A DNA stretch of 64,000 nucleotides from Paragyromitra xinjiangensis (lineage: Eukaryota > Ascomycota > Pezizomycetes > Pezizales > Discinaceae). The stretch's first letter is position 1; every line of letters begins with the position of its first letter. Made by a program: the position numbers and the translations under genes. The stretch is taken from the NCBI GenBank assembly GCA_038503065.1, contig JBCAMK010000017.1:248001-312000 (forward strand), given 5' to 3'. Under the pieces are notes generated by a model that worked only from the letters and a program-made list of their open reading frames with translations, did not search any database and was not told where the DNA came from. Below, one piece after another: positions 10,568 through 53,429 of the stretch.

Positions 10568-11600
10568 CTAGCTATGTGCTTCAATACATGTTCTGGCATT
10601 ATGACCCTGTTTTTTACAGCTAGAACACCGCTGTTTTGTTTCCGGTACCTCTTCCCCATTTGCTCGGCGCGCATAATTCAATGCAGATAAACCTTTATCT
10701 CCTTTCTGCGCCCGCTTTTTTTTCGGTCTTCCTGGTAACCTTCGTGTAACAGGTGGATAACAAGTTACATGATCCGGGCCAGGCTGTACCTGAAGATTCT
10801 CGATGGTAATAGGCCTCCAATTTTGTGAATAAATTGTTTTCCAAGTCTCAACAGAAAGGGCCATAGGGTAGTAATCTCTAGGTGCTTGATGTAAAGCCAT
10901 AATTAGAGTAACCGCATGCGAACAAGGTATCCCATTTTCCTGAAACCGTCCACATGTGCAGGTACGTGTTTGTACTAAAAATATTACAAGATTTAGTGAA
11001 ACGTAATATGTAAGACCTGAGATACTGGTATGTACTTACGATTAACAATAAAAGTTTTTTCATCTCCATTGACATCCTCAAGCCCTTCGTCAGGTCTAAT
11101 TCTTTGTTGTACCTCACACCATAATTGATTTGCGACATGTACAGAATTTGATTGAGCCCAAATACGACTGGTTTCCGCTTCAGTATTACAGAGTTTGGTG
11201 AATAGTAGATGACAGGAATTGGCTTCTTGATGTCGTTTGTATCGTAAAGTCATTTGTGAATGCCATATTTCGTTGAGGAGATCAAGTATTGGAAGCTCGC
11301 GTACACCCGTATGTGAAAATGTGTTGTTTAGCGATTCAACAATATTTGATGTATAGTGACCATACCGCCGTCCAGTAAAAAAGGCTGTAACCCAACATTC
11401 TATTTCAGTGTTTGCTAGGTATTGTGCTGCCGCAGGCTTCTCATTCCGCAAAAGTGAAAGTCGTTCCTCATAACTTTGTGGAGTTTTTGCGTGAGCAATT
11501 CTCCAAAAGTACTTCTCTGTTAATTCAACACCAAATCGTGTTTTGAAATTCTCACGTAAATGAAAACAGCAGTTTGCACGGTGAATTCCAGGTCCCAATA
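10568..11600 (-). pseudogene. C-terminal half of a MULE transposase, severed by insertion B1
   Basis: Read on the minus strand from 11598, the frame continues the N-terminal half at 52551-53429. It starts LGPGIHRANCCFHLRENF, typical of Mutator-like transposases. The segment GHYTSNIVESLNNTF supplies the expected catalytic Glu of the DDE triad. A 65-bp intron (11039-10975; donor GTAAGT, acceptor TTTTTAG) precedes a SWIM zinc finger (CTCGRFQENGIPCSHAV). The C-terminus has a PGRPKKKRAQK basic stretch and a zinc knuckle (CSSCKKQGHNARTC) before the stop at 10568. The exons are 11598-11040 and 10974-10568. I see no stop or frameshift other than the insertion, so the copy was probably intact when hit. 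Confidence 0.85.
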
Positions 11601-12276
11601 CATCAGCAAAACCGATTCTTGGCTCCTGGGCGCTCCCGGACCCTCATGGATGGTGCGGACCAGATGGAGGCAAGTGCCAGTCCATGGAACAGCCATATCC
11701 CAAGGACCCTTGCACACAGTTCCCGGACCACACACCACTTCTCACGGACCCTCATGGACCTTCCTGCATCAGCAAAAAATTTATTCCTCTGTGGAGGCCA
11801 CCGAGGCCGCCGAGGCCGCCGAGGAAACTTATGAATTGCAGAGACATGAACAACGCCCCGACCTCCGCCGAGGCATGAGCAAGATCCTGATCTCTGCCGA
11901 GGCATGAGCAAGATCCTGACCTCCACCGAGGAGCAGCACCACGACCCTCGTCCTCGGCAGAAATCAGGACCACGTTCTTCGTCCTCGGCCGAGATTAGGA
12001 CGACGTTCTTCGTCTCTAGAGAGACAGCATTCGGCTGTGGTCTCGCTGGAGGGTCATGTCATGCAGGAATTCAGTCACTCATCGGCTGCTGCCTCTAGGG
12101 CTCTGAATAGTGGAAATACGCTTGATTCGCTATATCTATATCTATTGAACAATATCTATGTACAGAATTCGCTATCTACAAGTCACTCTAGGACAATATT
12201 TATGTACAGGCTTCTTCATTCATATGCACCAATGTCCCAATCACCATCCACACCGACACCGAGCCCAGACCGCAGA

Positions 12277-12950
12277 CAGTGGATCCAGCAGCTAGGCGAG
12301 CCTGGAGACAGCAATAGGAAGTCAGCGAATTCAGCAGCTAGGCGCGCCTGGAGGAGTCAGTGAATCCAGCAGCTAGCCGAGCCTGGAGGCAGTAATAGGA
12401 AGTCAGCGAATTCAGCAGCTAGGCGCGCCTGCAGGCGGCAATAGGAAGTCAGTGAATTGAGCAGCTAGCCGAGCCTGCAGGCAGCAATAGGAAGTCAGCG
12501 AATTCAGCAACTAGCCGAGCCTGCAGGCAGCAATAGGAAGTCAGCGAATTCAGCAGCTAGGCGCGCCTGGAGGCAGCAATAGGAAGTCAGCGAATTCAGC
12601 AGCTAGGCGCGCCTGGAGGCAGCAATAGGAAGTCAGCGAATTCAGCAGCTAGGCGCGCCTGGAGGCAGCAATAGGAAGTCAGCGAATTCAGCAGCTAGGC
12701 GCGCCTGGAGGCAGCAATAGGAAGTCAGCGAATTCAGCAGCTAGGCGCGCCTGGAGGAGTCAGCGAATTCAGCAACTAGCCGAGCCTGCAGGCAGCAATA
12801 GGAAGTTAGCGAATTCAGCAACTAGCCGAGCCTGCAGGCAGCAATAGGAAGTTAGCGAATTCAGCAACTAGCCGAGCCTGCAGGCAGCAATAGGAAGTCA
12901 GCGAATTGAGCAGCTAGGCGCGCCTCCAGGCAAATAGTAGGAAATCCAGC
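12277..12950. repeat. 46-bp tandem repeats, left arm of element C
   Basis: About fourteen imperfect units of 46 bp contain GAAGTCAGCGAATTCAGCAG and CTAGGCGCGCCTGGAGGCAG. Some units are shortened (GGAGGAGTC instead of GGAGGCAGCAATAG). The same repeat occurs inverted at about 13600-13990, so the two blocks form the inner stem of the element C palindrome. Confidence 0.8.
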
Positions 12951-13599
12951 GAATTTGGCTGCTAGGCAGGCTCAGGAGGGATCGTGGAAGAGGAGGAACA
13001 GCGGAGGGTAGGCGAGTCGACCCGAATACCTGTAAATAACGCGTGTTAGCAAGTGATCAGCCAAAGACTTGGAGCAGACCTAGGAAAGCTGAAGATCGTG
13101 AGGTGGAGTGGCAGGAGGATAGGGGTAGGAGGATAGGGGCAAGAGGTTGGGAGGAGGTTGGGAGCAGGGAAAATTTACGCCAAGAGGCAAGCTTGGCAGC
13201 CGGTTAAGCGGAATCGAGCCACACCAAATCACTCGTTTTGTACCGAACTTTGATTTATTCTTTATGCAAATCAGCATCTCAAATGTATGGAGAACACAGC
13301 CAAAATAAATGTTGAAGTGCATTGCGAAAAAAATATGGTTCCCTTCAGCCAGGCTTAGTAAGCGGATTTACCCGGCCTAAGCAAATATCCTCATTCTGAT
13401 TTAGGCAACCTCTCCCCCTTCTCCGTCCTCCGCCTGTTGCAAATCTCGCGATCTTCTGCTTTCCTAGGTCTCCTCCAAGTCTTTGGCTGATCACTTGCTA
13501 ACACGCGTTATTTACAGGTATTCGGGTCGACTCGCCTACCCTCCACTGTTCCTCCTCTTCCACGATCCCTCCTGAGCCTGCCTAGCAGCCAAATTCGCT

Positions 13600-13990
13600 G
13601 GATTTCCTACTATTTGCCTGGAGGCGCGCCTAGCTGCTCAATTCGCTGACTTCCTATTGCTGCCTGCAGGCTCGGCTAGTTGCTGAATTCGCCGACTCCT
13701 CCAGGCACGCCTAGCTGCTGAATTCGCTGACTTCCTATTGCTGCCTCCAGGCGCGCCTAGCTGCTCAATTCGCTGACATCCTATTACTGCCTCCAGGCGC
13801 GCCTAGCTGCTGAATTCGCTGACTTCCTATTGCTGCCTGCAGGCGCGCCTAGCTGCTGAATTCGCTGACTTCCTATTACTGCCTCCAGGCGTGCCTAGCT
13901 GCTGAATTCGCTAACTTCCTAAGCTGCCTCCAGGCGCGCCTAACTGCTCAATTCGTTGACTTCCTATTGCTGTCTCCAGGCTTGCCTAGC
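13600..13990. repeat. 46-bp tandem repeats, inverted right arm of element C
   Basis: About eight units are the reverse complement of the block at 12277-12950 (CTGCTGAATTCGCTGACTTC type). Unit number differs between the arms, so the arms have diverged by unit loss or gain. Between the blocks lie the inner stem words TTGGCTGATCACTTGCTAAC and the roughly 390-bp loop at about 13085-13470. Confidence 0.75.
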
Positions 13991-15332
13991 TGCTGGATCC
14001 ACTGTCTGCGGTCTGGGCTCGGTGTCGGTGTGGATGGTGATTGGGACATTGGTGCATATGAATGAAGAAGCCTGTACATAAATATTGTCCTAGAGTGACT
14101 TCATCAGCAAAAATAATTAACGCCTCCAGGAGCATGGGCACCCCTCCCGGGGAGGCAATCTCCTCCATGTGCTCCGTGCGCTCCCAGGGCACTTGGAGGC
14201 ACGAGCGCCCCGACCTGCATCTCCCGGAGGATATGGCTTCTCCCGCGATATGCTGTATCCTCCATGAGCCAAAGGCACAATCCTAAGCCTCCACCCCACT
14301 CCTGGACCTCAACACCACTGCCAAAGACTCCCTGAATCGCAGACTATTGGATCTCGCTTAGGGACTTAGAAGAATTTCTTTCAACTTCCCGTTGCTGCCC
14401 CAACCAACCCACGCCGCCCACCCTATTCACCCACCCCCTTTTAACCCCCTGAGCTAAGCCCATACCTCCTCCTCCTCTCCTACATCTCCATCATAGACGC
14501 GTCGTTTTGTACAGTAGCTAACTCTGAATAGGCCTCGTCACTCCCCTTGCTGAATCCACGGCTGAATCGACTGCTTGCCTGCCTCCAAATCCCGTGCTTT
14601 CCTGCCTCCGAATCGACTCCTGAATAGACTCCGAATCGACTGCTGAATAGACTCTGAATTGGCTGTTTCTAAGCCTCCGAATCCAGCTGAATTGACTGCT
14701 GAATAGACTCCGAATCCCGTGCTTTCCTGCCTCCGAATTGACTCCCGAACCTCCTCCCGAGCAGCCTCCGAAGCAGCTGCTTGCTTGCCTCCAAATCTAC
14801 TGCTAAATAGACTCCTGAATTGACTCCGAATCGGCTGTTTTTAAGCCTCCGGATCCTGCTGAATTGACTGCTGAATTGACTCCGAATCAGCTGTTTCCGA
14901 GCCTCCAAATCCTGTGCTTTCCTGCCTCCGAATAGGCTGTTTCTGAGCCTCCGAATCCTGCTGAATTGACTGCTGAATAGACTCCTGAATGGACTCCGAA
15001 TCCACTGCTGAATTGACTCCAAATTGACTCCTGAATAGACTCCGAATCCACTGCTGAATAGCCTCCAAATCGACTCCGAATCGGCTGTTTCTAAGCCTCC
15101 GAATCCTGCCGAATAGACTCCGAATAGATTCCGAATAGACTCCGAATTGGCTGTTTCTGAGCCTCCGAATCCACTGCTGAATTGACTGCTAAATTGACTC
15201 CTGAATAGACTCCGAATCTGCTGTTTCTAAGCCTCCAAATCCCGTGCTTTCCTGCCTCCGAATAGGCTGTTTCCGAGCCTCCAAATCCACTGCTGAATTG
15301 GCTGCTGAATTGGCTGCTGAATAGACTCCGAA

Positions 15333-15882
15333 CATCAGTAAAAATAATTATCACCTCCTGGAGTTTGGGCACGTCTCCCGGGGAGGCAATTTTCTCCTCA
15401 ACCTCCGTGTGCTCCCTGACCTCCTTGAGGAGTGGTTGCGCTACGATTTCCTCCTGGAGGATATACCTAATCCTTTCGACTCCAGCTATCTCCTGGAGGA
15501 AATGGGTGCTCTTCGTCACTGCAGTTAGCTCGTGGAGCGCCTAACAACTTATTCATATCTCTAGGAGGATAATGCTTCTCTTTCCCGCAAATTTTCAAGT
15601 GCTTTGCTTAGTAATTGCAGCCAAGTACGCAGTATTTAGATTTTATTGGCTCTATTCGTTCAAATGATGCAGTGTTGCCACGTAGGATGTTAAGCATCCT
15701 ACGCCTACTTCCATCTCACTCCTGCTCTCATCCTTCGTCTACTCTCTCTAATCCTTCGTCTACTCTATGTTCTCTGAGTCCGAGTCCCTGACTATGTACA
15801 AGCTCCTAATCCTCGAGGATGCCCAGTTTCCTAATCCACTCATGCTTCCAAGTTCCTAGTCTTGCGAGGATACTCAGCATCC
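15333..15882. repeat. Left subterminal region of Pla-1
   Basis: This 550-bp non-coding end follows the terminal inverted repeat. It carries CTCCTGGAG/CTCCCGGGGAG words, then several AGGAT and ATCCT words, including the small inverted pair AGGATGTTAAGCATCCT near 15685. Repeated motifs close to the ends are typical binding sites for transposases of the EnSpm/KDZ type, which is my inference here. Confidence 0.5.
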
Positions 15883-18800
15883 TCAATTCTCTAATGTATA
15901 TATCTCATTGAACGTTGTAAGGTCAATTCGGTTGTTGACCAGCCATTTAGTATTATTCTCCTGGAGCTCCGGCTGCTCGGGAATGAGATGCACGATTCCC
16001 ATGATATTCTTTATCCCCACAACGAATCGATCATCCTTCAGCCTAGTAGATACTCTCACCATCCCATGGATGTCCGTAATCCTACCTCCACCTGGAAAGG
16101 CTCGTAGCATCCTCACAAGGACTAGCCGATGTGTGTACTCTGTATGAGGATCTCGAATCTTAAAGAGGCAAAGCACCTTGGCTGGAAGGCGTCCTCGAAG
16201 AGCACCAAACTGGCTCTCGTCTCTTACCTGGACCCACACCCAATCGTTTCGTGGAGCTCGACCCCTAAACGCTCGCTCCCCTGTGCATCTCACACGATGA
16301 AGCTCAAACTCCTCAGGCCGCTGAAACATAGGCACAGGGACTCGAAGGTGAGAGAACATCTCAGCTGGGTATGTAAGAAGAGCCTCTGTATCCTCCTCAA
16401 GACGACGCTCATCCTTCAAATTCTGACTGCTGTAATATAGTATTCGTTCCGGTAGATCCGGAATATTCATTAGGGAGATGATGTCATGCAGAAGGGAAAT
16501 CTTCGCTTGTCGACCACATAATCGCCGGAGGGATGCTCTTTCTCCTATATGTTGGATCTCGGATCGTCTGGGCCTAAGGATATTGTGCAGCTGCGAATTG
16601 GGAGGCTCAGCATCCCCGTAATTGGGAGGCTCAGCATCCCTAGAAAGGGCCCGGAGGTTCAATATACGCATACCCAATGCTTGTCGACGTGCATAGTAGC
16701 GCAGGATTTGCTTCGTCGAATCGATTTTATTGGATGCCCTATATCCTTCTTTGATCTGCTGCCGATGTGCTGTCTCCCCAACCTCGGTAGAAAACATGGG
16801 GATCCCTCCATACCGCTCAACATGCTCATGGAAGTGCATTAGGAGGTGCATCTTTGGAAAGTTGAAGTGGCTTTCTTCCTGCTGCGTTTCAACGAGTAGC
16901 TCTCTCCTTTCAAGCCTATCTGCATCCTCCAATCGTCTTTTTCTTGATCCTGCAAGAGGAGGTCGGGCATCCTGCGATAGCTTCAAGCGCTTGACTGTTG
17001 CCCGTGCCTTTGCGCTTGCCTTCTTCGAGGCTCTGAATTCTAGGAAGATATCCTTATGCTGGTGGAAGTCGGCGAGGTATTGATCCATATATCGCAAGGT
17101 TTCAGGTGTATGGCTCCGATACTGTGCCATAAGGTGGAAATCAATAAAACTCCACACGCAAAGGATAGCTCGCTTGAAAGGATATAGCTCATCCTTCGAC
17201 GGATGGAGCAGCGCAACTGCAAAGGCTCCGAGAAGGATACGGCCGAGATTGCGCATCTCCTTGCCCTGCCACTGGGAAACCTCTCGATAGGCTTTAGTTG
17301 GCCTAGCCAGGCCTGGGAAGGGGGGTATCGACATCCAGACTTCGTCAAATGCTTGCAGCCTCTTGTGTTTCTCAAGGAAGCTCTCTATCCACTCCATCAG
17401 ATGCTTCAATAAACCGAGATAGATGTTATGTAGGAGGTCTGGCTTGTGGAGGTCCCCAGCGCGAGGGAGGTGTGGCATCCCCCAAAAGACGTTGAATGGC
17501 GCTTTCAGCCCTCGTTCGACGAGATACTCCAACTCCTGAGGATCTCCAGTATCGGCGAAGGATTGCGCCACTTCCTGATACTCCTTATCGTTTCGTTTCG
17601 GGCTGCTGGCTTGCTCACCAAGTTGGTCTGGTTTGACCTCGCACTTTGGGCAGGCGTTTTGCTGCAGGTTGTGGAGTTGGCAATGCTCTGCGTGGTCAGC
17701 CATCCAAGCACAAAGGATTGGATAGCACATTCGGTACTGAGCATCCGCACATGCTAATCGGATTCCAGTCATCCCAGCCTCTTTCATATCCTTGAAAAGG
17801 ATGCCGAGGACCTCGTGCAGTATATCTCTATTGGCTTCTCGGCGGAGTCTATTGATTGAATTGTCTTTTGTAAACTTTGGAGGGATTGGGAGGAGCGCCA
17901 CGAGAATCATAGCCATATTCGTTGGCTTATTTCGAACTTCGGAAGGGATATTCCCTATCGTCAAGTAGATTGGCCAAGCCTTCTTATCACCTGAGAAATT
18001 GGTGAGATGTGTGCCATCCGAGCCGCAGATGACTGGAATCACCGTGGCTCCGTGAGGTAAGCTTTCCTAGCCACGAGAATTAGCAGAATAATGGATACGT
18101 AGGAGGGAATAGCTAACCTGTATTTCCCACCACCAGTCTGCTGTATGCAGCTCAGAATACATCCTCTTCTCCGCTGGCGTTGTATTCTCGTACTGGACGA
18201 TAGACCATATCCTTGGCATATGCCGGCTGTTTGAGCAAGGATTGGATACAGGCCAGTATTGGCCTGAAGTAATACCACGGCACTCTTTTCCTCCTCCCGT
18301 CCATGACTTCACAACTCCCTCGCTGCCAGTGCGCTTGGCCTAAATCAGGATCTATCCTATCGAGGAGTCTGTACATCGTATGGGCAGACCTAAATCCTGG
18401 CGTAGGAGTGCAGAGCTCCTCGTTGAAATACTCGTTGATGCGGGTTTGTGCTATCCCACTCTCTAATATCCACCTAGCGAGCTTGAAGTCAAAAGCCGTC
18501 TCAAACGGAGCGTAGGGGTTTGAGAGGAGGAATTCGACAACCTCTCGATGATCCTCCACATCCCCCAAAGAGCACGCTGCATCGGCAAATTGAATTATCC
18601 TTGGGCCAGGCAGCTGCATGGGCCCTGTGTTGGTATTCCCGTCATTATCCTCCGTATCAGAAGGATTCTCGTCATCCTTCTCACTTCCACCTGCAGTGCT
18701 CCCATCCGATGATGTGCCTCCTTCCGAGTTGGAGCAGATATCTTCCCAATCGCTGTCTGGATTCTGTTTGCGCCATGAGCCTGCTGCACCATCCCGTTCA

Positions 18801-18940
18801 TCCTCCTCGGATTGAGAGCCTCCTTGGCCAAATACGATAGAGGCATGCTTAGGATGGATATCTATCACGTGAGTATGCAACGACAGAGCTGAGCTGTAGG
18901 TGCAGCGGCACAATGGGCAGCGGGATCTTGAAACCTCCAT
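15883..18940 (-). CDS. Plavaka-like transposase of Pla-1 (one apparent frameshift)
   Basis: The start is ATG 18940 (MEVSRSRC), where homology to the Pla-2 copy begins. Exon 1 (18940-18118) encodes a C2H2 zinc finger (CPLC, x12, H, x4, H), an acidic Ser/Asp-rich linker and a conserved block (FADAACSLGDVEDHREVVEF). A 51-bp intron (18117-18067) follows. Exon 2 (18066-15883, 727 codons) carries VIPVICGSDGTHLTNFSG, a Cys cluster (ACPKCEVKPDQLG), HKPDLLHNIYLGLLKHLMEW, and the C-terminal half with EHVERYGGIPMFSTEVGETAH and RNDWVWVQV. Near 18165 one extra base (GGAGAAGAGGATG against GGGGAGAGAATG in Pla-2) shifts the frame before YSELHTADWWW. It is either a real inactivating change or a sequence error. 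Confidence 0.8.
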
Positions 18941-19641
18941 ATCAACTTGAAGGATGCCGTGTATCAACTGCGGAGCAAGATGCTAAGGGATGGATGCTGG
19001 AGCTCGCTTAACGGTAGAATGCCCTTGCTGGAAGTACGATATTAATATTTGCTAAGAGAAATTAGGATGCTGATAATCGCTGGTAGAAAGTAGGATATTT
19101 GCTCACTATTAGGGGGATGCAGGCTAGAGCTTGCGCGGGAATGGAATGTTGCCCCGTGGAGGATTTGTGGCGATCGCTGGAAATCAGCCTCGGGGATGCT
19201 AATGCCGAGGAGAAGTAGGATGCTGAGAGGGAGTAGGATGCTGGAAGGGAGTAGGATGCTGTAACTCATTTGAAGTGGAGTGATATTGATCACTAGAGTA
19301 GGATTCTGCTGCTTGCAAAGGTAGGAGGCTTTCGTTTGTTGCTCGTCGGAGTTCAGGGGGTGTTGATATGAGGTTGAACTATGGGGGTAGGCTAATCCTA
19401 AAATAGGAGGTGCAGGCGTCGCTTAGAGGATTCGGTGTGGGTTAGGGTTAGCCTGCGCACAGATCCTATCAATACCTCATATATGACCTCATAAACGCTG
19501 CCAGGGCAAACAAATCCTGCTTCTCCTCCTCTTCAGCTTCCTCCTCGCTCTCCTCCATCCTCTGCAACCTTCTCTCCTAGCTTGCCTAAGCTCACGATAC
19601 TATATATCCTTCCTAAACCAACTTGATATTACTGTTTCAAG
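18941..19641. promoter_or_regulatory. Divergent intergenic region of Pla-1
   Basis: About 700 bp separate the transposase start and accessory gene 1, which are transcribed apart from each other. The region holds many AGGATGCT words, including near-tandem GGGAGTAGGATGCTG copies at about 19230-19260. The same position in Pla-2 (44492-45056) and Pla-3 (32768-33998) is also a divergent spacer, so it is likely a bidirectional promoter. Confidence 0.5.
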
Positions 19642-21258
19642 ATGTCCAATATCCTCAAATCGGCAGTAGACTCGCAGGAAGTGGGCGGTGAGCAAACTCC
19701 ATGGCGCAGGGTATCTTGATACGTTGATGCTAATATAAATAGGCGGTGAATACTCCCAGTAAATTGAATCCAGAACCAGAACCAAGTGCTATTCAGAATC
19801 CTACGAAAGATACAGAGACTCCCTCGAAAGAACGAAAACGCCCGTCTAGCAGCGACGGCTATCAACTCAGAAAGTTTGCCCGCCTCTCCGCAGGTCCTTC
19901 ATCTCCCACATCTCCTACTCCTCGCACTCGGAGGACTGATATCGCGACTCCCCCCCCAACTCAAGCTTGGCGCCTCTTTTTGGACCAGGTACTTATACCA
20001 TTCAAGGATACGCAGTCTCCTTCTATTCCCATGGCTGCTCTGGATAAAGGTAAAGGCAAAGCTAAGGAACCATTGGAGGATCCGGAAACCCCAAAGGAGG
20101 ATACGGAGACTCAGAAGAAGGACCCAAAACCCCGAAGAAGCCTGAAACGCCGAAGAAAGTGGTAATAAAGGGAAAGGCGCCAAAGAAGGAAACGCCAAAG
20201 AAAAAACTCATGAAGGCCACCGACTACAAACCACTCCTTGGCTTCAGAGAGGATAATCCTCATCATTATACCGTCCTTCGGAGTGATGTTGTATCCTATT
20301 TGAGGATGCATGGTATCCGAGGCATCGCCAATCCTAGCGCCAATGCCTGGGAAGCATTAACAGAATGGGCTGAGGAGCATCATTCTATTGTGACCTACCG
20401 TTCAAGGCATGCTGATGATAAGGAGCAGGTAGACCAGGCGATGCAGAGTCTCCTTCGGGATTGCCTGCATCAGGTGCAGCAGACGGATACCAAGATTCGT
20501 TTAGAGCTAGAGGATACTGGTATGATCGAGAAAGAGAACGATGTGGAAGGTAAGATTTTGTTTATGATCTTCTATTTGTTTGACTGAAGGATGCTTACTA
20601 TCGTGCGGGTGATTCAGAATTCAAAGAAGTCGCAGTCCGAGTGACACTCTGTGACCCGGATGCCTGGTGGAGGGTTTCCACCAAGGAGACTCGTTATCCC
20701 TGGGAAGCACCGGCTGAGGTCAATTGGGGTTTAATCAAGTCTTGGGTTGCCGTAATTAGTGCTCCTACCCTTAACGAGTGCCTTCGCGTAGCCACGAGGC
20801 GATTACCTGCGGGCCGTACTCCTCGAAGGATGCTAGGAGCCCTTGTGGATGCTGTTCCTGGAGAGGTTTCTACGACTTTCCCAACCTCTACTATTCTTGC
20901 CGACGATGAGGATGTTGCTGGCTGGCTGGCCCAGATACAGGGTCTAACCGCTCCGAGGATGCTGGTCGTCCTTCATTGGGCCCCATACGATGGTCCGGGC
21001 CCTAAGGGGGAGCCTGCGGAGGAGTATGATGGCTCAGATACGCCACCTGCGTCAGGGGACCCTGATTATTTTACGGCTGAAGCGCTTGCCGAAGCCTTGG
21101 CTGCAGTGAAGGGAGTGGAGGAGAAGGGGAAAGCAAAGGATAAGGGGAAGGCAAAGGATAAGGGGAAGGCGAAGGATAAGGGGAAAGCAAAGGATAAGGG
21201 GAAAGGGAAGGATACGGAGGAAGTGGATGAGGATTATGAGGCAGCAGGACCTGCTTGA
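19642..21258 (+). CDS. Plavaka accessory protein 1 of Pla-1 (apparent frameshift)
   Basis: The start MSNILKSAV at 19642 matches MPNIFKTVV in Pla-2. A first intron ends at 19742. The next part is Pro/Ser/Lys-rich (VNTPSKLNPEPEP). Near 20100, inside a PKK-rich stretch, the frame must shift by one base to reach the conserved domain. That domain has YKPLLGFREDNPHHYTVLRS, an intron at about 20550-20616, DPDAWW, GECL/NECLRVATRRLPAGR, LADDEDVAGWLAQ and RMLVVLHWAP. The tail repeats KGKAKD five times. Homologues occupy the same place in Pla-2 and Pla-3. I do not recognise the family; a DNA-binding or transposition-helper role is a guess from context. The intron-1 phase also fits poorly, so the copy may be decaying. 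Confidence 0.6.
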
Positions 21259-21683
21259 ACGATTGGTATACTCCCTTCTGATGGCTATTACTAGATCAGC
21301 AAATGCTTATAATATTGAACAGAAAAACGAAAGATCGGAAGGGGGGTTTAGAGATATTGGGATTAGGATTATCGGGTATTAGGATTAGGATTGGGATTAG
21401 GGGGCGCTTGATGGAGATTACCGCGAGGATGTGGAGCATCCTTGATATTTGCTATCCGTGTATTTTTATTTTTTTATTTTTTGGGAGGTCGAAGCGCTGC
21501 GTCAGTAGTATTATGTTAGGGCTAGAGTCAATTCAAATATGTCTTAGAGATCAGACCGCACTCCTTATAAGCATCACCCCCAGAGGTCCTCCTCAGGATT
21601 CCCTCTCTCCTCCATACGCTCTTCTATCTCCTCCATACATTATCACCTATCACCTTTCCAAATCATACATTCTCCGTCGAAGG
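21259..21683. other. Spacer between accessory genes of Pla-1
   Basis: This is 425 bp of non-coding DNA with a degenerate GGATTA tract at about 21347-21400 that looks telomere-like. It also has the inverted pair GAGGATGTGGAGCATCCTTG at about 21426, and a CT-rich leader before the ATG at 21684. The corresponding spacer in Pla-2 is 46752-47215. Confidence 0.45.
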
Positions 21684-23630
21684 ATGACAGCCATCCGCAA
21701 GAGAGGCCTCGAAGCAGCAAAACGAATGCCACCACCCCCTCGCCCCGCCGAAGCAAGAAGGAGGAAGCGTATCGCAGATTCGGAAGCTGAGCCTCTCAAT
21801 TATGGTCGACGTGGTAGAGAAAGAGAAAGAGCACCAGCATCGCAAGAGGAGGAGGCAGAGGAGGAGGATGAGGAGGAGAACGAGGAGGAAGCTGAGGGGG
21901 AGACCGAGGAGGGAGTAGATGAAGAAGATTCAGCGGATGAAGACTTCTATGAGGATGAGCAAGCTCCCCCCCCAAGTCAGAACCGGACCAGAAAACCACA
22001 GACGAAGATACAGGCTGCAGCATCTGAAATGGCTCGTAATGCTAGCTATCGAGGGCAAGCTCGCTTGGTAGGAGCCCTGAGGATACGGCAAATCCTCGGA
22101 TATTGAGAATCCTAAACTATTGAGAGCTTTTCTAACTGTGATGCAGCGTGTTCCCGAACCCCTTGAGCAGGCACCAGCTCGGCGAGCTAGGCCAGGCCGC
22201 CCTCCGGCAACTCCTGCCAATTCTCCGAATCGTAGCAGTGGAAGGTCTGTATCTCCCACGGGGGATGCAGAGAGTCGTAACGGAGGTGACCTTCATAGAA
22301 GGAGCAGCAGAAGCGTATATCTGCTGGGAGAGCCTATCCGTGCCTTAGTCCATGCATCCCAGGAGAATATTCTGCAAAAGACCCTATTTTGTGAGCCCCT
22401 GCCATCCCCCGAGACATTGCTCAAGTGGATACGTACTGCTTGGGCGAAGGCTTCCGAGGATATGGAGCGTCAGGCTCCTCTGGAGGCAGCTTGTTCTCGT
22501 CAGGTATTCACTCCCAACCCACGGCCTACTACCCACAGCTGGTCAGATTTGCTTGCCTTAGAGAGCTTGGAACTGACGACAGAAAATATTTGGCAGGTAA
22601 TTACCCCTTTCCTTGAAGGATACTGCATATCCTCACATGAGATATAGATCAGCCAGCAACATTGCCGCGTGCGCTCTCACCTCGTCAGCGCAGCCAAGGT
22701 GAGCATCATCCAGCTCTATGAGCTGGATGAGCAAAATCCTGAGAGTATCCGAAACAAGGTGGAGTATTTGCTAGTCAAGGATAGGTTTATGTGCCTTGAA
22801 TCTACCATGGCGGTATGTTGAATTCGAGAGCAATGGGAGTAGGAAGCTGACCATCCTACTAGGATTTTAAGAATCGCTTTCTGAATGATGCGATTGCTGA
22901 GCTCATCTTTCTCAAGTACTATAGGGGGAGGAGGATGAGGGGACGCTCTGATTCTGCGTTTGGCTCTTTGATCAATAAGGAGTTCATTTGCTTCGTCACA
23001 GCGGCACTCCAGTACAATTTGAAAGCCTGGAAGACTGGCATGTATGTGGAGCCTACAGACTTCACTAGGGAGACCTGTTATCGTACTGCTGCCCCTCCAA
23101 TTGCTATATCTTTGCTAGGATGACTGACATCCTTTATAGCCGTCTGGCGTAGGCACTGCAGCACGTGGGATACCATAGCACTCAAAGCTCCTGAATGGGA
23201 AGCGGAAGTTCTGCATGCGATTCGGTACGAGGTAGAGAGAAAGGTTGCTAGGGTAACTAGGAGGACTGTGGACGAGTCAGCTGCTCCTTGGAGCGATGAT
23301 GACGATGACGGCGATCATATGGATGAGTTGCGGAGTCGTAAGCGGAAACGGGAGCTCGAAAGAGGAGGCTATCAAGGTACTCGAAGCAAAGCCAGGCGAA
23401 AGGGTTCGGAGTCTCCTCATCCCGAGGATAGTGAGCAGGCATCGGGGCCTGTCAATATTCCTACCCTTTTCTTGGAGCAAGAAATCCAGAGTGAGATGGA
23501 AACTGAAGCCGATACCCCTCCTCCAACTCCCGCAGCCGATACCAGTCCTCCTACTACTGATAATATGCAGGTCGACCTTTCTGCGGCTGTCGCAAGCTTT
23601 GAGCGGGAAATGGAGGATGAAGATCTTTGA
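21684..23630 (+). CDS. Plavaka accessory protein 2 of Pla-1, DUF6532-like
   Basis: Five exons (21684-22067, 22147-22596, 22648-22812, 22863-23082, 23140-23630) with GT-AG introns join in frame to 569 residues. The N-terminus is basic, then strongly acidic (Glu/Asp run), and ends ADEDFYEDE. A conserved core follows: RSVYLLGEPIRALVHASQ, LYELDEQNPESIRNKVEYLL, RFLNDAIAELIFLKYY, NKEFICFVTAALQYNLKAW and KTGMYVEPTDF. The pattern of the last segments matches my memory of DUF6532, a domain common in fungal transposon-rich genomes. The C-terminus is acidic and Pro-rich (AAPWSDDDDDGDHMDE). No stop or frameshift is seen, unlike the Pla-2 and Pla-3 copies. It probably assists transposition or regulates the element; that is inferred only from its conserved position. 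Confidence 0.7.
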
Positions 23631-24681: not shown

Positions 24682-25173
24682 AATCCCGCGCTTTCCTGCC
24701 TCCGAATCAACTGCCGAATCGACCACCTCCCTGCCTCCGAATCCATGGCTGAATTGACTGTTTGCTAGCCTCCGAATCGACTCCACAGCAAGCTCAGCAG
24801 CAGGCTCAGAATAGGTGGGTAGGATGCGGCAAGGCAGGAGGATGCGGCGGGGCAGGAGGATGCGGGGGCTCGTTTGATGTATATAGATCCGTTAGATAGT
24901 CAATAATAATAGTCAAAATAATTTTCTAGACCTGGGTGACAGCGTGACATAAGTGAATTGAGTACCGTGACAGGCGTAACTTGTGCTCCTCCACAGCTCT
25001 CCATGGCACGTTAGGAGTGCCTATATCGATCTCCAAGAGTCTCCCGGAGCGCTTGCTGCCTGCTTCTCCGTGCCTCCCTGAGCAGGTCGGTCTTGGATCG
25101 CTCCTCCAGGTAGGCACATAAACTCCTGGAGTCTCCCGAGTCTCCCGATGATCCCGAGCCTCCTGGAGCTGAG

Positions 25174-41022: not shown

Positions 41023-42589
41023 GCCTTTGCGCCTGCCTTCTTCGAGGCTCTGAATTCGAGGAAGATATCTTTGTGCTTATGGAAGTCGGCGAGATATTGG
41101 TCCATATATTGCAAGGTTTCAGGTGTATGGCTGCGATACTGTGCCATAAGGTGGAAATCGATAATGCTTCGGACACAGAGAATCGCTCGTCTAAAAGGAT
41201 ATACCTCATCCGACGACGGATTGAGGAGAGCAACAGCAAACGCTCCAAGAAGGATACGACCGAGGTTGCGCATCTCCTTGCCCTGCCACTGGGAAACCTC
41301 TCGATAGGCTTTTGTTGGCCTAGTCAGGCCTGGGAAGGGGGGTATCGACATCCAAACTTCATCAAATCCTTGCTGCCTCTTGTGCTTCTCAAGGAAGCCC
41401 TCTATCCACTCCATCAAATGCTTCAATATACCGAGATATATATTATGTAGGAGGTCTGGCTTGTGAAGGTCCCCAGCGCGAGGGAGGTGTGGCATCCCCC
41501 AAAAGACGTTGAATGGCGCTTTCAGCCCTCGTTCAGCAAGATACTCCAACTTCTGAGGATTGTCAGTATCCACAAAGGATTGAGCCACTTCCTGATACTT
41601 TCTGTCGTTTCGCTTCGGGCTGTTGACTAGGTCTCCAAGCTGATCCGGCCTGACCTCGCACTTTGGGCACGCATTTTGCTGTAGGTTGTGGAGTTGGATG
41701 TGCTCGGCGTGGTCAGCAATCCAAGCACAAAGGATTGGGTAGCACATTCGATATTGAGCATCTCCACACGCTAATCTGACTCCGGCCAGCCCAGCCTCTT
41801 TTATATCCTTGAAAAGGATGTCCAATACCTCATAAAGGATCTCTCTATTGGCTTCTCGATGGAGTCTATCCGCCAAACTGCCTCCAGTAAATTTGGGGGG
41901 GATAGGGAGGAGTGCTACGAGGATTATAGCCATATTCGTTGGCTTGTTTCGAACCTTGGAGAGGATGTTGCCTATCGTCAGGTAGACTGGCCAAGCCTTC
42001 TAATCGCCCGAAAAATTGGTAAGATGTGTGCCATCCGACGCGCAAATAACTGGAATTACTGTAGCCCCATCGGGCAAGTCCCCCTAGCCATGAGATTAGA
42101 AGGATGATAGATATCCTGATGCGGGATGCAGCTAACCTGTACTTGCCACCACCAGTCTGCTGTATGCAGCTCCGAGTACATTCTCTCCCCTCCAGCGTTG
42201 TATTCTCGAACCGGGCGATAGACCACATCCTTTGCATATGCAGGTTGCCTAAGCAAATATTGGATACAAGCCAATACTGATCTGAAGTAATAGGATGCCA
42301 CCCTCTTTTTTGTCCCTTCCATGACTTCGCAAGTCCCTCGTTGCCACTGGATCTGATCTAATTCCGGATCAATCCTGTCAAGGAGTCTGTGCATCGTATG
42401 GGCGGATCTAAATCCTGCTGTAGGAGCGTCTGCTGCAGGCGTGCAAAGCTGCTGATTAAAATACTCGTTGATACGGGTCTTAGCTATCCCGCTTTCTAGC
42501 ATCCATCGAGCGAGCTTAAAGTCAAAAGAGGTCTCAAATGGAGTATAAGGGTTTGAGAGAAGGAATTCGACAACCTCCTGATGGTCCTC
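41023..42589 (-). pseudogene. Central part of the Pla-2 transposase, with a nonsense codon
   Basis: Reading down from 42589, DHQEVVEFLLSNPYTPFETS continues the fragment at 44082, followed by ERMYSELHTADWWWQVQ and an intron (donor GTTAGC, acceptor GGCTAG). The next exon starts GDLPDGATVIPVICASDGTH. At 42002-42000 the codon AAG of NFSGDKKAW is TAG, a premature stop absent from Pla-1. Then come ACPKCEVRPDQLGDLVNS, HKPDLLHNIYLGILKHLMEW and FLEFRASKKAGA, up to the A2 junction. Confidence 0.8.
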
Positions 42590-44081
42590 CATCAGCAAAA
42601 CCGATTCTCGGCTCCCGGGCGCTCCCGGACCCTCATGGACGGCACGGACCAGATGGAGGCAAGTGCCAGTCCATGGAACAGCCATATCCCAAGGACCCTT
42701 GCACACGGTTCCCGGACCACACAACACTTCTCACGGACCCTCGTGGACCTCCCTGGACCACCTACCATAGATGGCGGACCTTCCTGGAGCTCTATCAATT
42801 CCTGTGGACCACACTGTCGCTTGTAGGTCGCTTATAGAGCGGCTGTAGGGCGCCAATAATACTACTACTAGGGGTACGTGAATGTTCATGATTATTGGTA
42901 TCAATTTGGCTACGTATATTGAAAAGCTACACTATAGGATCTCTATGTACAAAATCAAGCAGTCGCCACTAGAGGCAACCCCCCCCCACACTAAACCCGC
43001 CTGTGCCTAAATCAATTGTTTGGTCTGCTATTCAGCAGTTGTTTCAGGCGCTGGCACGCAGTCGATTCGGAGTCTATTCAGGAGTCAATTCGGCAGTCAA
43101 TTCAGCAGGATTCGGAGGCTGAGAAACAGCCGATTCGGAGTCAATTCAGGAGTCTATTCAGCAGTCAATTCGGCAGTCAATTCAGCAGGATTCGGAGGCT
43201 TAGAAACAGCCGATTCGGAGGCCGCTCAGGAGGCTCTCAGGCAGTCGATTCAGCAGGCTGTGGAAGCGAGCGAGGTCTGCTGCTGAAGGGGTCTGCGGCT
43301 GAAGGGGTCTGCGGCTGAAGTGGTCCGACCAGGCGAGGTCCGATGTAATAGGGTCCTATGTCTGCTGTCAACGATGTCCGAATGTATGTGGGATGTTGGA
43401 ACTGAAGTCACGATGTTAGCAAAGTTCATGTAACTGCATAGTAGGGAGGGAAGGGTAATAGGGAGTGTGGATGGGTGTGGATGGGTGTGGATGGGTGGGA
43501 GTAAGAGAAAAGGGGTAACGTGGCAACAGTACGGGTGGCAGCAAAAGACCTTCGCCAAAAATTCGCTAAGTCCTTAGGGCCAGGGTTATTGACTCAATTG
43601 CAAGCGAGATCCTGCGATCTCCTGTCAGCAGGGTGCGCAATTCGGGACCCTAATAGAGAGCAGGTACGTAGTTCAGGGTACTGGTGGAGTGGAGGTTCGC
43701 ACTTCAGGGGACTGGGGGAGGGCAGGTACGCACTTCAGTGGTGTTCAGATCGGTACTGGGGGAAGGTACACAGCTCCAGAGAGCGCCATGGAGCTAAGAA
43801 AGCAGACCCTGATCGGTACTGGGGGGAGATATGCAACTCCAGAGAGCACCATGGACTGTGCAACGAAGCTCCAGGAAGCTCCAGGAGGGTCCATGGGTTT
43901 GTAGGTGAGGTCCACAGTGTGTACAGGAGCACAGTCCTTCCGTCCTGTAGTAACCAAAATAGACCACAAGACGGGTGGCTGATCCAGTTGTGCTCAGGAC
44001 TCTCCCACACCAACGCTCAGACCTCCAGGAGAACGTGGGACCGGGAAGTAGAAGCCAGGATCAGAATCAGTTTTGCTGATG
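42590..44081. mobile_element. Element B2: intact 1,492-bp non-autonomous CATCAG transposon
   Basis: The ends CATCAGCAAAACCGATTC and GAATCAGTTTTGCTGATG are flanked by TC (42588-42589 and 44082-44083). The Pla-1 exon shows the empty site GATCCTCCACATCCCCC. B2 is the reference copy for B1 and proves the empty sites of insertions C and Pla-2. Its left part is built of GGACC words, its middle holds a 12-bp repeat tract, and its right part holds GATCGGTACTGGGGG repeats. No gene is supported. Confidence 0.9.
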
Positions 44082-45056: not shown

Positions 45057-46751
45057 ATGCCCAATATCTTCAAAACGGTAGTAACCCCAGAGGAGCCTCC
45101 GGCTCCGCAGTGGATGGTAAGCAAACTTGAGCCTAGAGCGGGGTAACTTGATACTTCGAGGCTAATATAAATAGTCGGTGAATGCCCCCCATAAATCGAG
45201 CTCAGAACCAGAACCAAGTGCTATTACAAATCCCGCGGAAGATACAGCGAATCCATCAGAAGTACATCAGCAAAAACAAACGACATTCCTCTGTGGCCTA
45301 TTTGACCTCTGTGGCCTATTTGGCTCCTATTTGGCCTCTGTGGCCTCTGCAGAGGTCAACATTCCTCTGTGGAGGTTTCTGAGGAAATTTCGATATTTTC
45401 CTCTGTAGAGGCCACAGAGGCCACAGAGGTCCAAATAGGAGCCAAATAGGTCACAGAGGTAAGAACATGATCCTAATTTCAAATAGGTCATTTTTTGTTC
45501 TTGCTGATGTACGAAAACGCAGAAAACTTACTCGCGATCCAGTAACTCCAGCTATCGATACCCCTGCCTCTCTTGCACCAACTACCCCTAATCGGAGGCT
45601 AGACTTCCATCAAAATCCAGGCAAGCGTCTTTTTCTCTCCCACGTGCTTATACCTCCGAAGGATACTCAGGCTCCTACTCCAACTACTGATATGGCGGCT
45701 CCTGATAAGGGTAAAGGTCCAGAAACTCCGAAGAAGAAGCTTTATCTAAACGCAGCGCAATATAAGCCATTGCTTGGCTTTGGGGACGGTAACGCACATC
45801 ATTATACTGTTTTTAGGAGTGATATTGTGTCCTATATGAGGATGTATCACATCCGAGGCACCGCTAATCCCAGTGCCGAAGCATGGGCTCATTTGGTGAG
45901 ATGGGCTAAAAGGCATGACTCCTTTGCCCTATTCCGTGAACTGCATTCGAAGGAAGAAGAGCAGCTAGAGCGAGCGATCAGCAGTATCCTCAGGGATTGC
46001 GTGCATCAAGTGCAGCAAGGCGATACTAGGCTCAAGAAGGAGCTTATGGGAATGGGAATGATCCCAAAGGCAAAAGCATTGACAGCGGCGGCAAAAAGTA
46101 AGCTTTGATTCCTGTTTCCTATTCGTTTGATTGATTGATTGATTGAAGGATGCTTACTATCGTTTACTAGGAGCTGCGGCCACATTTGAGGAGAGAGCAG
46201 TTCGAGTGATCATATGTGATCCTGACAACTGGCATAGAGACCCCAAGATCGATCCTGCCTATGAATGGGAAGGCGATCTAAGCGTAGTAGGTCATTGGGT
46301 CGGAGTCATCGGGGCTCCTACTTTTGGCGAGTGCTTGCGAGTGATAAGCAAGCGTTTGCCTAAGACCCGCATCCCCCGGAGGATCCTTGGAGCCCTTGAG
46401 GATGCCACGGATGATTCTAGTACAGAGAGTCCGGCTAGCGTTATTTTGGCTGACGATGAGGATGTTGCTGGCTGGCTGGGTCAAACACGGGGCCTAGCTG
46501 CTTTGAGGATGTTAGTCATCCTTCGTCGGCCGCCTGGCGAGGACACAGACACGCCACCAAATGAAATAGAAGGTCCTTATCTTACCGTGGAATTGCTGCT
46601 TAAAGTTCTGACTCGTCTAGTTGTCGAGCAAGGAATGCAGGAGGGCCCGGGCTTTGTGGAGGAAGAGAATGAGGAGGATGCGGATGTGGATGCTAGAGCT
46701 AGGGATTTGATGCTGCAGGAGGATAATGCTGGTGGCTCTTCGAGCAAATAA
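45057..46751 (+). pseudogene. Plavaka accessory protein 1 of Pla-2, interrupted by element F
   Basis: Exon 1 is 45057-45116 (MPNIFKTVVTPEEPPAPQWM), followed by an intron to 45174. Exon 2 is 45175-46097 with element F and one TA removed, and exon 3 is 46171-46751. All joins are in frame. Conserved parts are YKPLLGFGDGNAHHYTVFRS, VRWAKRHDSFALFRELH, CDPDNWH, GECLRVISKRLPKTRIPRRI, LADDEDVAGWLGQ and RMLVILRRPP, and the tail is acidic. Apart from the 245-bp insertion the frame is open, so this copy shows the undamaged gene structure better than Pla-1. Function unknown. Confidence 0.7.
45265..45509. mobile_element. Element F: 245-bp hairpin MITE of the CATCAG family
   Basis: The ends CATCAGCAAAAACAAAC and TTTTGTTCTTGCTGATG are flanked by TA (45263-45264 and 45510-45511). 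The interior is a near-perfect hairpin: CCTATTTGGCTCCTATTTGG on the left pairs with CCAAATAGGAGCCAAATAGG on the right, around a short centre, with repeated CCTCTGTGG/CCACAGAGG words. Those words also start element C, so F and C are probably related. Confidence 0.85.
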
Positions 46752-48455: not shown

Positions 48456-50639
48456 CATCAGCAAAAAAAAATTGTCGCCCAGACACGTTCTTGTCTTCTG
48501 GAAGGCCATATTCCGCCTGCTGCGTTTGTGGTCTTCCTGCCCGCCCAGGCGAGCTGGTCCGGGTGCTGGCTGCGCCCAAGCGCAGGCTTTGCAGGCCGCA
48601 CAGTGCTCCGGCCTCCTGGCGCTCGTCCGCAGCCACCCGTGTCCGGGCGCTGGCACTTAGCAGAATCCAGCCGACTGCTCAATGGATTTTTTTTTTTCTA
48701 AGTCCCTAGAAACTCGGGACTTAGCAAAATTCACCTCGACTCCCACCAGGCACTTCGCGATTTTCAAAAATCTCCAGGTCGCTTAGTCATCGCTGAGTAG
48801 TCGCCATGCCGTCGCCAAAGCAACGCCTAATAAGACACCAATCTCCACCTCTCCCGTCCTTCCTACTATTGCTTCCCCCTATTCCCTCCCACCCATCCAC
48901 AACCTCGCTGTACCGCTGACATCGTGACATTTAGGATCGAAGCAACGAGCTCTGCTTGCAAAGAACCTCCTAGGTAACGTCTTGATTCCGTTTATTTGAC
49001 TCCGGCTGATATGCCTCCTAGACTCGCTTCGATCCGCAGCTTCAGCTTCCTCTGCCTCCGCTGGCTGCCTGCTTCGCTGCTTCCGCCTAAGCGAGCTCAG
49101 GAGCTTCCTGAGCTTCCGCCATATGGTCAATTCGCTGCCTGAGCTTCCGCTGCCTCCTGGAGGTCGTTGATCTGCTGCTGCAGCCTCCGCTGCCTGCGCC
49201 ATATGGTCGATCCGCTGCCTGAGCTTCCTCCGCCTCCGCCAAATGGTCAATTCGCTGCCTGGGCTTCCGCTGCCTGCGCCACATGGTCGATCCGCTGCTT
49301 GAGCTTCCTCCGCCTCCGCCTCCGCTAATTGGTCGATTCGCTGCCTGAGCTTCCTCCGCTTCCGCCAATTGGTCGATTTGCTGCTTGAGCTTCCGCTGCC
49401 TCCGCCACATGGTCAATTCGCTGCCTGAGCTTCCGCCGCCTCCGCCAATTGGTCGATTTGCTGCTGCTGCCTCCGCTGCCTGCGCCATATGGTCGATCCG
49501 CTGCCTGAGCTTCCGCCGCCTCCTGGAGGTCGTCAATCTGCTGCCTGAGCTTCTGCTGCCTCCTGGAGGTCGTCGATCCGCTGCCTGAGCTTCTGCTGCC
49601 TCCTGGAGGTCGTCGATCCACTGCCTGAGCTTCCTCCGCCTCCGCCAATTGGTCGATTCGCAGCTTGAGCTTCCGCTGCCTGCGCCATATGGTCAATTCG
49701 CAGCCTGAGCTTCCGCCGCCTCCGTCAATTGGTCGATTTGCTGCAGCCTCTGCTGCCTGCGCCATATGGTCGATTCGCTGCCTGAGCTTCCGCTGCCTCC
49801 GCCACATGGTCAATTCGCTGCAGCAGCCTCCGCTGCCTGCGCCATATGGCCGATTTGCTGCCTGAGCTTCCGCCGCCTCCGCCACATGGTCAATTCGCTG
49901 CTGCAGCCTCCGCTGCCTGCGCCATATGGTCAATTCGCTGCCTGAGCCTCTGGTGCCTCCGCTGACTGAGCTTCTGCCGCCTCCTGGAGGTCGTCGATCC
50001 GCTGCCTGAGCTTCCGCCGCCTCCGCCAATTGGTCGATTTGCTGCTGCTGCCTCCGCTGCCTCCGCCACATGGTCAATTTGCTGCCTGAGCTTCCGCTGC
50101 CTGCGCCATATGGTCAATTCGCAGCCTGAGCTTCCGCCGCCTCCGCCACATGGTCAATTCGCTGCAGCAGCCTCCGCTGCCTCCGCCATATGGTCAATTC
50201 GCTGCCTGAGCCTCTGCTGCCTGCGCCATATGGTCGACTCGCTGCTCAACCCCTCCCTACCCGTAGAGTACGAAGAACAGATACATGTACATATAGAACT
50301 TTATATATCCATAGAAATAATAGAACGATTGTAAACAAGCATATGGGCAAAAGCCTCCAAACTAGACCACAGGGCGACCTGCTGAAAATGTGATTCTGTG
50401 GGCGCACTGCTCTCCTCCAGCTGTCTTCCAGACGCCCATCAACCCCCCATTGTCGCCTGGAAGATAGCCTCCTGAAGCTCAGTGCGCCCTATGCTGGAGA
50501 ATGACCGACCTCTGGTAGGTTGTCGCCCAGACGCAAAGCGCAAAATTCACAACCTCGGGAAGGGCTATATTCCGCCCCGACCGCCTGGGCCGCCTGAGGC
50601 ATTGGGCGGACCGGGCGACAATCCGTTTTTTTGCTGATG
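48456..50639. mobile_element. Element G: 2,184-bp non-autonomous CATCAG transposon with minisatellite core
   Basis: The ends CATCAGCAAAAAAAAATTG and CAATCCGTTTTTTTGCTGATG-type are followed inward by TGTCGCCC/GGGCGACA in both orientations. Flanking AA duplications lie at 48454-48455 and 50640-50641. Pla-1 has the empty site GATTTTAAGAATCGC. The outer parts are rich in CGCCCAG/GGGCG words, and the centre (about 49000-50250) is a minisatellite. No transposase gene. Confidence 0.85.
49000..50250. repeat. Minisatellite of ~39-42-bp units inside element G
   Basis: About thirty units mix a few modules: CTGCCTGAGCTTCCGC, CGCCTCCGCCAATTGGTCGA, TGCGCCATATGGTCAATTCG and CTCCTGGAGGTCGTCGATCC. Unit lengths are mostly multiples of three, so the minus strand stays open in more than one frame and yields pseudo-proteins with RQRIDHMAEAAEAQAANRP-like repeats. 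I regard these as by-products of the repeat, not genes. Confidence 0.7.
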
Positions 50640-51406: not shown

Positions 51407-52425
51407 GGATTTAGGGGGGTGTTGAGGGATGTGGAGCATCGTTTATTTTTTTGACTGGATATGCGTCGCCTTTCCTTTCGTCTTGTCGTTGGTTAGTGGT
51501 AGGGAACGCGTAGGATACACAGCATCTTTCCCTTTGTCTGCTTTAGGTCTTTTTGTTGGTTTGATAGGAGGAATCGCGTAGGATACACAACATCTTTCCC
51601 TTTGTCTGATTTAGGTCTTTTCGTTGGTTAGTGGGAGAAGGTGATCGCATAGGATACAGAGCATCTTTCTTTCCGTTTGTCTTTTGAGCGTTTGTTGGTT
51701 GGTCGTGGGAGCCTCGTAGGATATACTGCATCTTTTCCTTTGTCTTTGTTTATCTGTTGTTTCGTGCGAGGCTGCGAAGGATTATCTATATCCAATATTT
51801 CTTAGTCTTTAGTAATAGTAATCCTAATTGATTTCTACCCTATTCCGCACGTACGAGTGATATCATGTGAATGGCTTTAAGCCCCCCAACGATGCAGGAT
51901 ACCACGATCTCCAGGAGGGAAGTAATAATAGGCATCACATCCTCAGAGGAGGTTCGATATCCAGTGCTCCATGAAGGAAGTAGTCAAGCGTCTTCCTCCT
52001 GCGAGAAAGGCTAATATTGTGTACTCCATAGGAGGAGGGAGTTGAGCAGCTACGTCCACGGGAGGAAGCTCAATATCGTATACTCCATAGGAGGAGGGAG
52101 TTGAGCAGCTACGTCCACGGGAGGAAGCTCGATATCGTATTTACTCCCTGAGAGTTTGCCCAAATACTCGCGATTATGGAGGCACCTGGAGGAGCCACAG
52201 GATCTCCATGGCGACATGGGGAGCAGGCGCTTAGGTCTCCTGGGGTCTCCTGGAGGAGCCATATGATCTCCATGGAGACTCCGGGAGTATGTGCCAGGCC
52301 TCCCAGGGTCTCCTGGAGGATGCAGGTCATCGCGTGCTCCTCCCTGAAGGCACAACTACGCCCTGAACCTCCCGACCTCCAAAGCCTCCTGGAATTGAGG
52401 GAGTAGAAAATTGTTTTTGCTGATG
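51407..52425. repeat. Right subterminal repeats of Pla-2
   Basis: About 51480-51790 holds roughly four units on the theme GTAGGATACACAGCATCTTT. About 52030-52140 has a 62-bp duplication (CTCCATAGGAGGAGGGAGTT and GAGCAGCTACGTCCACGG). The last 300 bp is rich in CTCC/GGAG words before the terminal inverted repeat. It is homologous in organisation to 23631-24681 of Pla-1. Confidence 0.6.
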
Positions 52426-52550
52426 AAATAGGCCAGAAGATGGGTGGCTGATCCAGTTGCGCTCAGGACTCTCCCACACCAACACTCAGACCTCCTGGAG
52501 CACGCAGGACCTAGAAGCAGAAGCCAGGATCAGAATCAGTTTTGCTGATG

Positions 52551-53429
52551 TATCTTTTCTGCTGATAGGAGACCTTTATCGCGATCACTCATCACAGTAG
52601 AATACATTACTTCAGGTATCGCATTCTTCAAATGGTTCATAAAATAGCACCATGACTCTTTATTCTCTCCTTCAACAACAGCCCAAGCAAGGAGGAGAAT
52701 GTGACCATTGGCATCAACGGTAACAGCCAAAAGCAAAGTTTGTACATAGTGAGCTTTACAAAATGTTCCATCAACAGCAATAAGTTTTCGACAGTATTGA
52801 AAGGATAATCGAGCCTCTGCTGGAGAAATAAATATCCATTGAAATCGTTCAACTGGTGTTGATTTGCCTGTGACAGGATTGGTACGAGTACCAGGAATCG
52901 TTTGAAGGTTGGTATATACTGAAGGATTTTGCTCGCGCAAACGATCAAGATATGAAGGTAGTTGCTCATAAACCAGTTGTTCATAGTCGAGTATATTGTT
53001 AGAAAGCATAGCTACTGCTTTCAGCGAAGCTCCATAGCTCACTTTTTCGCTATAGTGGATTTGGATGGTATTGATGATTTCGCGAGCGGTGGTTTTTTTC
53101 ATAATGATGATGTGTTTTGGTATGTGTTCGCATAACCAAGACTGAGTATTGCAAACGGATCCACGTGAATTGAGGGAAGGGGCTGCGCCTAAACAAGTAT
53201 GTTCATTGTTGAGTCGACTAACTTTAATATCATTTTGCGTATTTGACCGAGAAGCAAATATCCTCCAACTGCAGCCAACTGTTGTTTTGCATTGGTATTC
53301 CACTCTTTTTTGGTCCTTCAGTGATATCCGAAAGTCAAATTTATCGCTAACTGCCCATGATTGAATATCTTTTTTCAAATCATTGAAACTTGCATAAAGT
53401 TGACCAAGTTGAATTGGTGTTGTAGGCAT
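52551..53429 (-). pseudogene. N-terminal half of the MULE transposase
   Basis: From the ATG at 53429 (MPTTPIQLGQ), 293 codons run to the B1 junction. The order is a MuDR-type N-terminal DNA-binding region (YQCKTTVGCSWRIFAS, VSRLNNEHTCLG), then the start of the MULE catalytic domain. That start has the first catalytic Asp in KLIAVDGTFCKAHY and the second in VMSDRDKGLLSAEKI. Removing B1 plus one TA joins SAEKI to LGPGIHRANCC at 11598 with no frame change. The whole gene would be 614 codons plus one intron, a usual size for fungal MULEs. No other damage is visible. Confidence 0.85.

Follow-up and report, generated by a model that had tools for sequence, protein, structure and literature searches.

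The stretch of DNA analysed here, referred to as the window, comprises 64,000 bases of contig C17 (248001-312000), which belongs to a genome of 48.2 Mb and 22 contigs. It carries a Mutator-like (MULE) transposase gene on the minus strand (10568-53429) that is interrupted by ten transposable elements lying one within another, each flanked by a 2-bp target-site duplication (TSD), and this arrangement is supported at every level. The gene matches the Pfam families MULE (PF10551, E 2.3e-11) and DBD_Tnp_Mut (PF03108, E 1.2e-10) within 52536-53429, and is split by the element B1 (11601-52550) into a 5' part at 52551-53429 and a 3' part at 10568-11600. B1 holds two branches: in one, C contains A1 and A1 contains Pla-1; in the other, Pla-2 contains Pla-3, A2, B2, F and G side by side. 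Nine of the ten inserts thus sit within an element of the same group. The original prediction gave the nest a span of 41 kb and the positions 10568-53429. The inserts themselves cover 40,950 bp, the extent of B1, and the outer positions delimit the MULE gene that they interrupt.

B1 has a length of its own of 1659 bp and a TSD of TA; it was delimited by termini and TSD and is homologous to B2. In its left branch, the palindromic C (11767-26027, TSD TG, own length 2737 bp) was likewise delimited by termini and TSD, A1 (14102-25623, TSD TT, own length 2171 bp) entered the right arm of C, and the Plavaka element Pla-1 (15333-24681, TSD AA, 9349 bp) entered A1, with its transposase open reading frames (ORFs) at 15883-18967 on the minus strand. 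The other branch is the Plavaka element Pla-2 (27400-52425, TSD AA), whose own 9680 bp are split by five inserts: a third Plavaka element, Pla-3 (29426-39093, TSD AA, 9668 bp); A2 (39276-41022, TSD GC, 1747 bp), inverted relative to A1; B2 (42590-44081, TSD TC, 1492 bp); the short F (45265-45509, TSD TA, 245 bp); and G (48456-50639, TSD AA, 2184 bp). A2 is without about 424 bp of A1 (25174-25597) beside one terminus, near 39301, and a subterminal motif common to both elements lies at the break.

Delimitation of the elements relied on their ends. The 11-base sequence CATCAGCAAAA, searched for on both strands of the window with at most one mismatch, gave 21 matches; over 100 shuffles the mean was 1.5 and the highest count 5. 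Twenty of the 21, half of them left ends and half right ends, form ten inverted pairs, and the unpaired match, ending at 682, is compatible with chance. The ends were paired last-in-first-out, as in a stack, by orientation only, and this reproduced the nesting order and the five levels (the MULE being level one) that had been proposed for the locus. In all ten intervals the dinucleotide immediately before the left end is identical to the one that follows the right end. When the 20 ends were re-paired at random, matching flanks in ten of ten intervals arose in only 4 of 200,000 trials.

Closure of the insertion sites

To examine each insertion site, both flanks were joined with one copy of the duplication, the closed site was aligned to its counterpart in the window, and the 40 bases around the joint were scored. 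The sites of C and Pla-2 in B1 close on B2 (37/40 and 36/40), the Pla-1 site in A1 closes on A2 (40/40), and the A1 site in C closes on the opposite arm of C (39/40), which here takes the place of a paralogue. Among the inserts of Pla-2, the sites of Pla-3, A2, B2 and G close on Pla-1 with 35, 37, 36 and 31 of 40 bases. When the right flank was slid from -8 to +8 bases, offset 0 scored highest at all nine sites tested, although the margin was small at F (39.0 against 36.5, or 2.5 points) and at G (39.0 against 38.0, or 1.0 point). With the insert retained, the left flank reached a score close to that of a single half. The expectation that each removal would close on one copy of a 2-bp duplication was therefore borne out, with identical flanks in ten of ten cases and offset 0 the best in nine of nine.

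The original prediction also placed an empty-site paralogue in the window for all ten insertions. This held for eight sites but not for those of F and the MULE. The F site scored 23/40 against Pla-1, with an alignment on the left side only, and closure of F on Pla-1 was rejected as the right side remained unaligned; the demonstration within the window fails here because the similarity of Pla-1 to Pla-2 is lost on the right of the F site. Genome copies provide the counterpart for F. With 500 bases around the closed F site as query, the genome returned 32 rows, 11 of which, with 84-98% identity, cross the joint contiguously. Of the others, 2 correspond to the two halves in the window itself, and 19 align on the left side only, ending near base 259 like Pla-1.

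At the MULE site, for which the window holds no paralogue, closure is indicated by the reading frame and by paralogues in the genome. The joined halves can be read from the ATG for 494 codons; the first stop then falls in an apparent intron and is followed by an in-frame, zinc-knuckle-like tail. Four genome paralogues, 70, 63, 62 and 50% identical, continue across the joint over most of the 300-residue query; a fifth covers residues 25-296 at 44%. Known MULEs have terminal inverted repeats and a target duplication of about 9 bp. The gene in the window has the MULE and MuDR DNA-binding Pfam domains and the zinc-knuckle-like tail in common with them, but unlike a known MULE gene it is broken, by B1. 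No inverted repeat flanking the gene was found among self-matches of at least 50 bits, and no directed search for one was made. With the ten intervals removed and the closed sites aligned, all ten close, F by way of other genome copies and the MULE by way of its reading frame and of paralogues in the genome.

These results bear on whether the nest could be an artefact, in which collapsed or misjoined repeats mimic nested insertions. In favour of this, the region is dense in near-identical repeats, and the nest is known here from the assembly. However, the 2-bp flanks match at ten of ten inserts, the closure falls at offset zero in nine of nine tested sites, and the nest is internal to a contig that extends beyond 1.57 Mb. 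In addition, the near-identical and inverted A1 and A2 each retain their own duplication pair, so there is no visible mis-join between them. We therefore consider an assembly artefact extremely improbable.

Relation to PlavakaB and to other nests

The Plavaka transposase domain (PF18759) was found above the Pfam cut-off in Pla-1 (E 1.5e-55), Pla-2 (41004-41933 and 42056-42727) and Pla-3 (31047-31925). In the excerpt of Kojima (2025; PMC12730594) consulted here, PlavakaB, of the CMCT clade, has the termini 5'-CATCA..TGATG-3' and TSDs of 2 or 3 bp, and the Plavaka families described there were reconstructed from Agaricomycotina. The transposase domain, the CATCA..TGATG termini and the 2-bp duplications are common to the nest and to PlavakaB as given in that excerpt: all 20 termini are of this type, and the duplication is 2 bp long in ten of ten inserts. 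By these features all ten inserts fit PlavakaB, a group of the CACTA/EnSpm-related clade, three of them being long with transposase sequence and seven short. While the families in the excerpt come from Agaricomycotina, the host of the nest is like a filamentous ascomycete, as described below.

The family search of the genome gave 125 Plavaka matches, several of which are exons of one gene. None of those listed lies inside A, B, C, F or G, and C is without a transposase match. These short elements have termini and a TSD length like those of PlavakaB, and cross-mobilisation by a Plavaka transposase would be consistent with this. CxxC and HxxxH-type motifs occur in those pieces of the transposases that were read. 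No match to TET/JBP was found in the ORFs scanned, from which split exons might escape. Beside the transposase, plus-strand ORFs in Pla-1 (20066-20587) and Pla-3 (33993-35447) have a weak similarity, below the cut-off, to Tri-helical (PF24465). None of ten plus-strand ORFs of these two elements exceeded the Pfam cut-off; those that resemble PF24465 are possibly a second Plavaka gene.

Several internal repeats occur in the short elements. A 12-bp minisatellite (ATTCAGGAGTCT-like) is common to the A and B elements (14540-15332, 26317-26780, 39690-40590 and 43058-43260), C contains a 46-bp array, and G carries a 40-bp minisatellite array. The interior of F is an imperfect palindrome.

A Sec5 gene lies at the right edge of the window. 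Its named homologues are distant, for example Xylaria curta at 42% identity and Histoplasma capsulatum at 50% over 39% of the query, and the gene and its relatives point to a host that resembles a filamentous ascomycete. Among the best 120 of 447 matches, the closest named Plavaka proteins belong to Morchella and Kalaharituber, with 38-53% identity over part or the whole of the query. From these relatives, a Pezizales-like ascomycete would be only a guess.

Nested transposon stacks occur in plants and fungi, for example in the maize adh1 region, and the known examples are mainly of long terminal repeat (LTR) retrotransposons. As in stacks of the adh1 type, the nest here has element within element and can be peeled by its target duplications. 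In contrast to the LTR-dominated stacks, every insert here is a DNA transposon and there is a single type of terminus. The literature on nesting, on Plavaka and its termini and on Morchella, taken beyond PMC12730594 at the level of the opening lines of abstracts, gave no account of this structure. The nest is an unusually clear and checkable instance of a familiar kind of structure.

Other places in the genome hold combinations of the same families. At C17:995543-999450, matches to G adjoin base to base (998526/998527 and 999330/999331), which suggests another nest with G in or beside G. Several of the nest families also lie close together at C9:300-347 kb, C11:1.09-1.14 Mb and C5:1.10-1.28 Mb, and these stretches may be further nests.

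Order and age of the insertions

Containment fixes that B1 came first, that C preceded A1 and A1 preceded Pla-1, and that Pla-2 preceded its five inserts. The strict relative chronology claimed for the stack goes beyond this: only a partial order follows, and 10,080 linear extensions are compatible with it, by which a complete ordering of the ten events is ruled out. Even the partial order presumes that no outer element moved while loaded. On the whole, the earlier interpretation was right about the nested structure and went too far in the chronology and in the proof from within the window, and it included neither the single-terminus group nor the youth of the nest.

If the nest had been partly built elsewhere, outer elements such as Pla-2 with some of its inserts, or A1 with Pla-1, could have arrived loaded, and containment would not equal the order of arrival. 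Cut-and-paste elements are able to carry inserts, and containment alone is compatible with such an arrival. All five insert sites of Pla-2 are empty, with 93-100% identity per site, at five sibling loci (approximately C18:838-845 kb, C17:1493-1500 kb, C11:304-311 kb, C7:200-207 kb and C6:2071-2077 kb). The closed sites of Pla-3, A2, B2 and G are contiguous in sibling copies at 100, 98, 100 and 100% identity at best; the best sibling, on C18, shows these values and 95% at the F site. Against loaded arrival, no sibling copy shares an occupied nest junction among the matches listed (40 of 189, 40 of 141, 31 of 31 and 40 of 110 candidates). Moreover, an element as long as 25 kb might have had to transpose, and we regard loaded arrival as quite improbable.

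The similarity of copies gives an indication of age. A1 and A2 differ by 3 mismatches in 1721 shared positions, the first 1.5 kb of Pla-1 has three other copies at 99-100%, and G has one full-length copy at 97% and one partial copy at 99%. F has at least 40 genome copies, the window copy included, and the 40 scored are 98-100% identical, a sign of a recent burst. Near-identity to the siblings, together with a MULE frame that is still open, points to a recent origin for much of the nest.

Proposed explanations: bursts, tolerance and target choice

We suggest that recent bursts of Plavaka elements of the PlavakaB group into a tolerated transposon island built this largely young nest, and we put the probability of this explanation at roughly 85%. 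The Plavaka transposase would cut at the common CATCAGCAAAA termini and would insert its own element and non-autonomous relatives through staggered cuts 2 bp apart. B1 would have broken the MULE gene first, and later bursts would have placed elements in DNA that was already inert, where insertions were probably tolerated. Mutual seeking among the elements would not have been the main cause.

The distribution of the short elements in the genome is relevant here, since they also move at other loci and leave the same signature there. The flanks of F were examined in 32 of the 40 scored copies, the window copy included, and the 2-bp flanks match in 30 and do not in 2. For A, 30 loci were taken; after removal of the window's own 2, of 8 second pieces and of L036, which is without paired termini, 19 distinct copies outside the window were left, in 17 of which the 2-bp flanks match and in 2 of which they do not. 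Sequence of the window's elements, which made up the whole kin library, adjoins 4 of the 32 F copies (one on one side only) and occurs within 1.5 kb of 11; one of the 19 A copies lies in a B element and one more adjoins G on one side. With such a library these nesting counts are lower bounds. At the same time, 15 of 29 F copies have a Plavaka transposase match no more than 20 kb away, compared to 2.1 expected, and none of 5000 random sets reached 15. This test used the 29 copies on contigs of known length, the 11 on contigs of unknown length being left out. The few F and A copies in kin and the clustering of F near Plavaka genes would both follow from accumulation in tolerated islands during bursts.

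A different possibility is self-directed or hot-spot insertion, in which the elements would favour particular positions within other Plavaka elements, guided for instance by transposase bound close to the termini. The location of nine of the ten inserts inside a member of their own group speaks for it, but if the elements simply sought each other, most copies would be nested. The low share of F copies (4/32 adjoining) and A copies (1/19 nested, 1 adjoining) in kin, counts that are lower bounds, speaks against strict self-targeting as the main cause, which was rejected. Target preference is also weak: over 56 empty sites, read on both strands, the duplicated pair slightly favours T and then A, at 53% each, which is one number by symmetry.

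The hot-spot version is kept alive by a site that was used twice. An A copy outside the window (locus L053, from contig C11, A copy at 893-2771) lies in a B element at the position of B2 43957-43958, exactly the dinucleotide that Pla-2 used in B1. The duplications are CC for L053 and AA for Pla-2, so these were two separate events. For any given pair of insertions, chance would rarely produce two hits on one site in a 1.5-kb B element. This is nevertheless a single coincidence selected post hoc, and gaps between rows suggest that the breaks in other B copies lie elsewhere. We consider insertion at preferred sites in kin rather unlikely as the explanation of the nest. The more specific version, in which Plavaka elements are guided to preferred sites in their own kind, the nest arises by self-targeting that spares genes, and the reuse of the B dinucleotide is its trace, is in our view unlikely.

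The explanation by bursts into a tolerated island has points against it as well. Tolerance alone is insufficient for the two B copies, B1 and the one on C11, that were struck at one dinucleotide by different elements. Not all of the inserts dated, which are those other than Pla-3, look equally young: the best partial matches of B1 (for 26028-27399 only) have 92-94% identity, the longer matches of C 85-97% and the best matches of B2 92-98% over parts. The assignment to PlavakaB was made by PF18759, the termini and the TSD length, and it is from their termini only that the short elements would be taken to move by the Plavaka transposase.

The nest is a good test case for nest-resolving software, because every level can be checked at an empty site and five siblings are empty at all five insert sites of Pla-2. 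It also gives exact PlavakaB-type ends, a duplication length and a target preference in an apparent ascomycete. The hits at the same site in two B copies raise a testable question, namely the reuse of sites within kin. For these elements, "nested" does not necessarily mean old.

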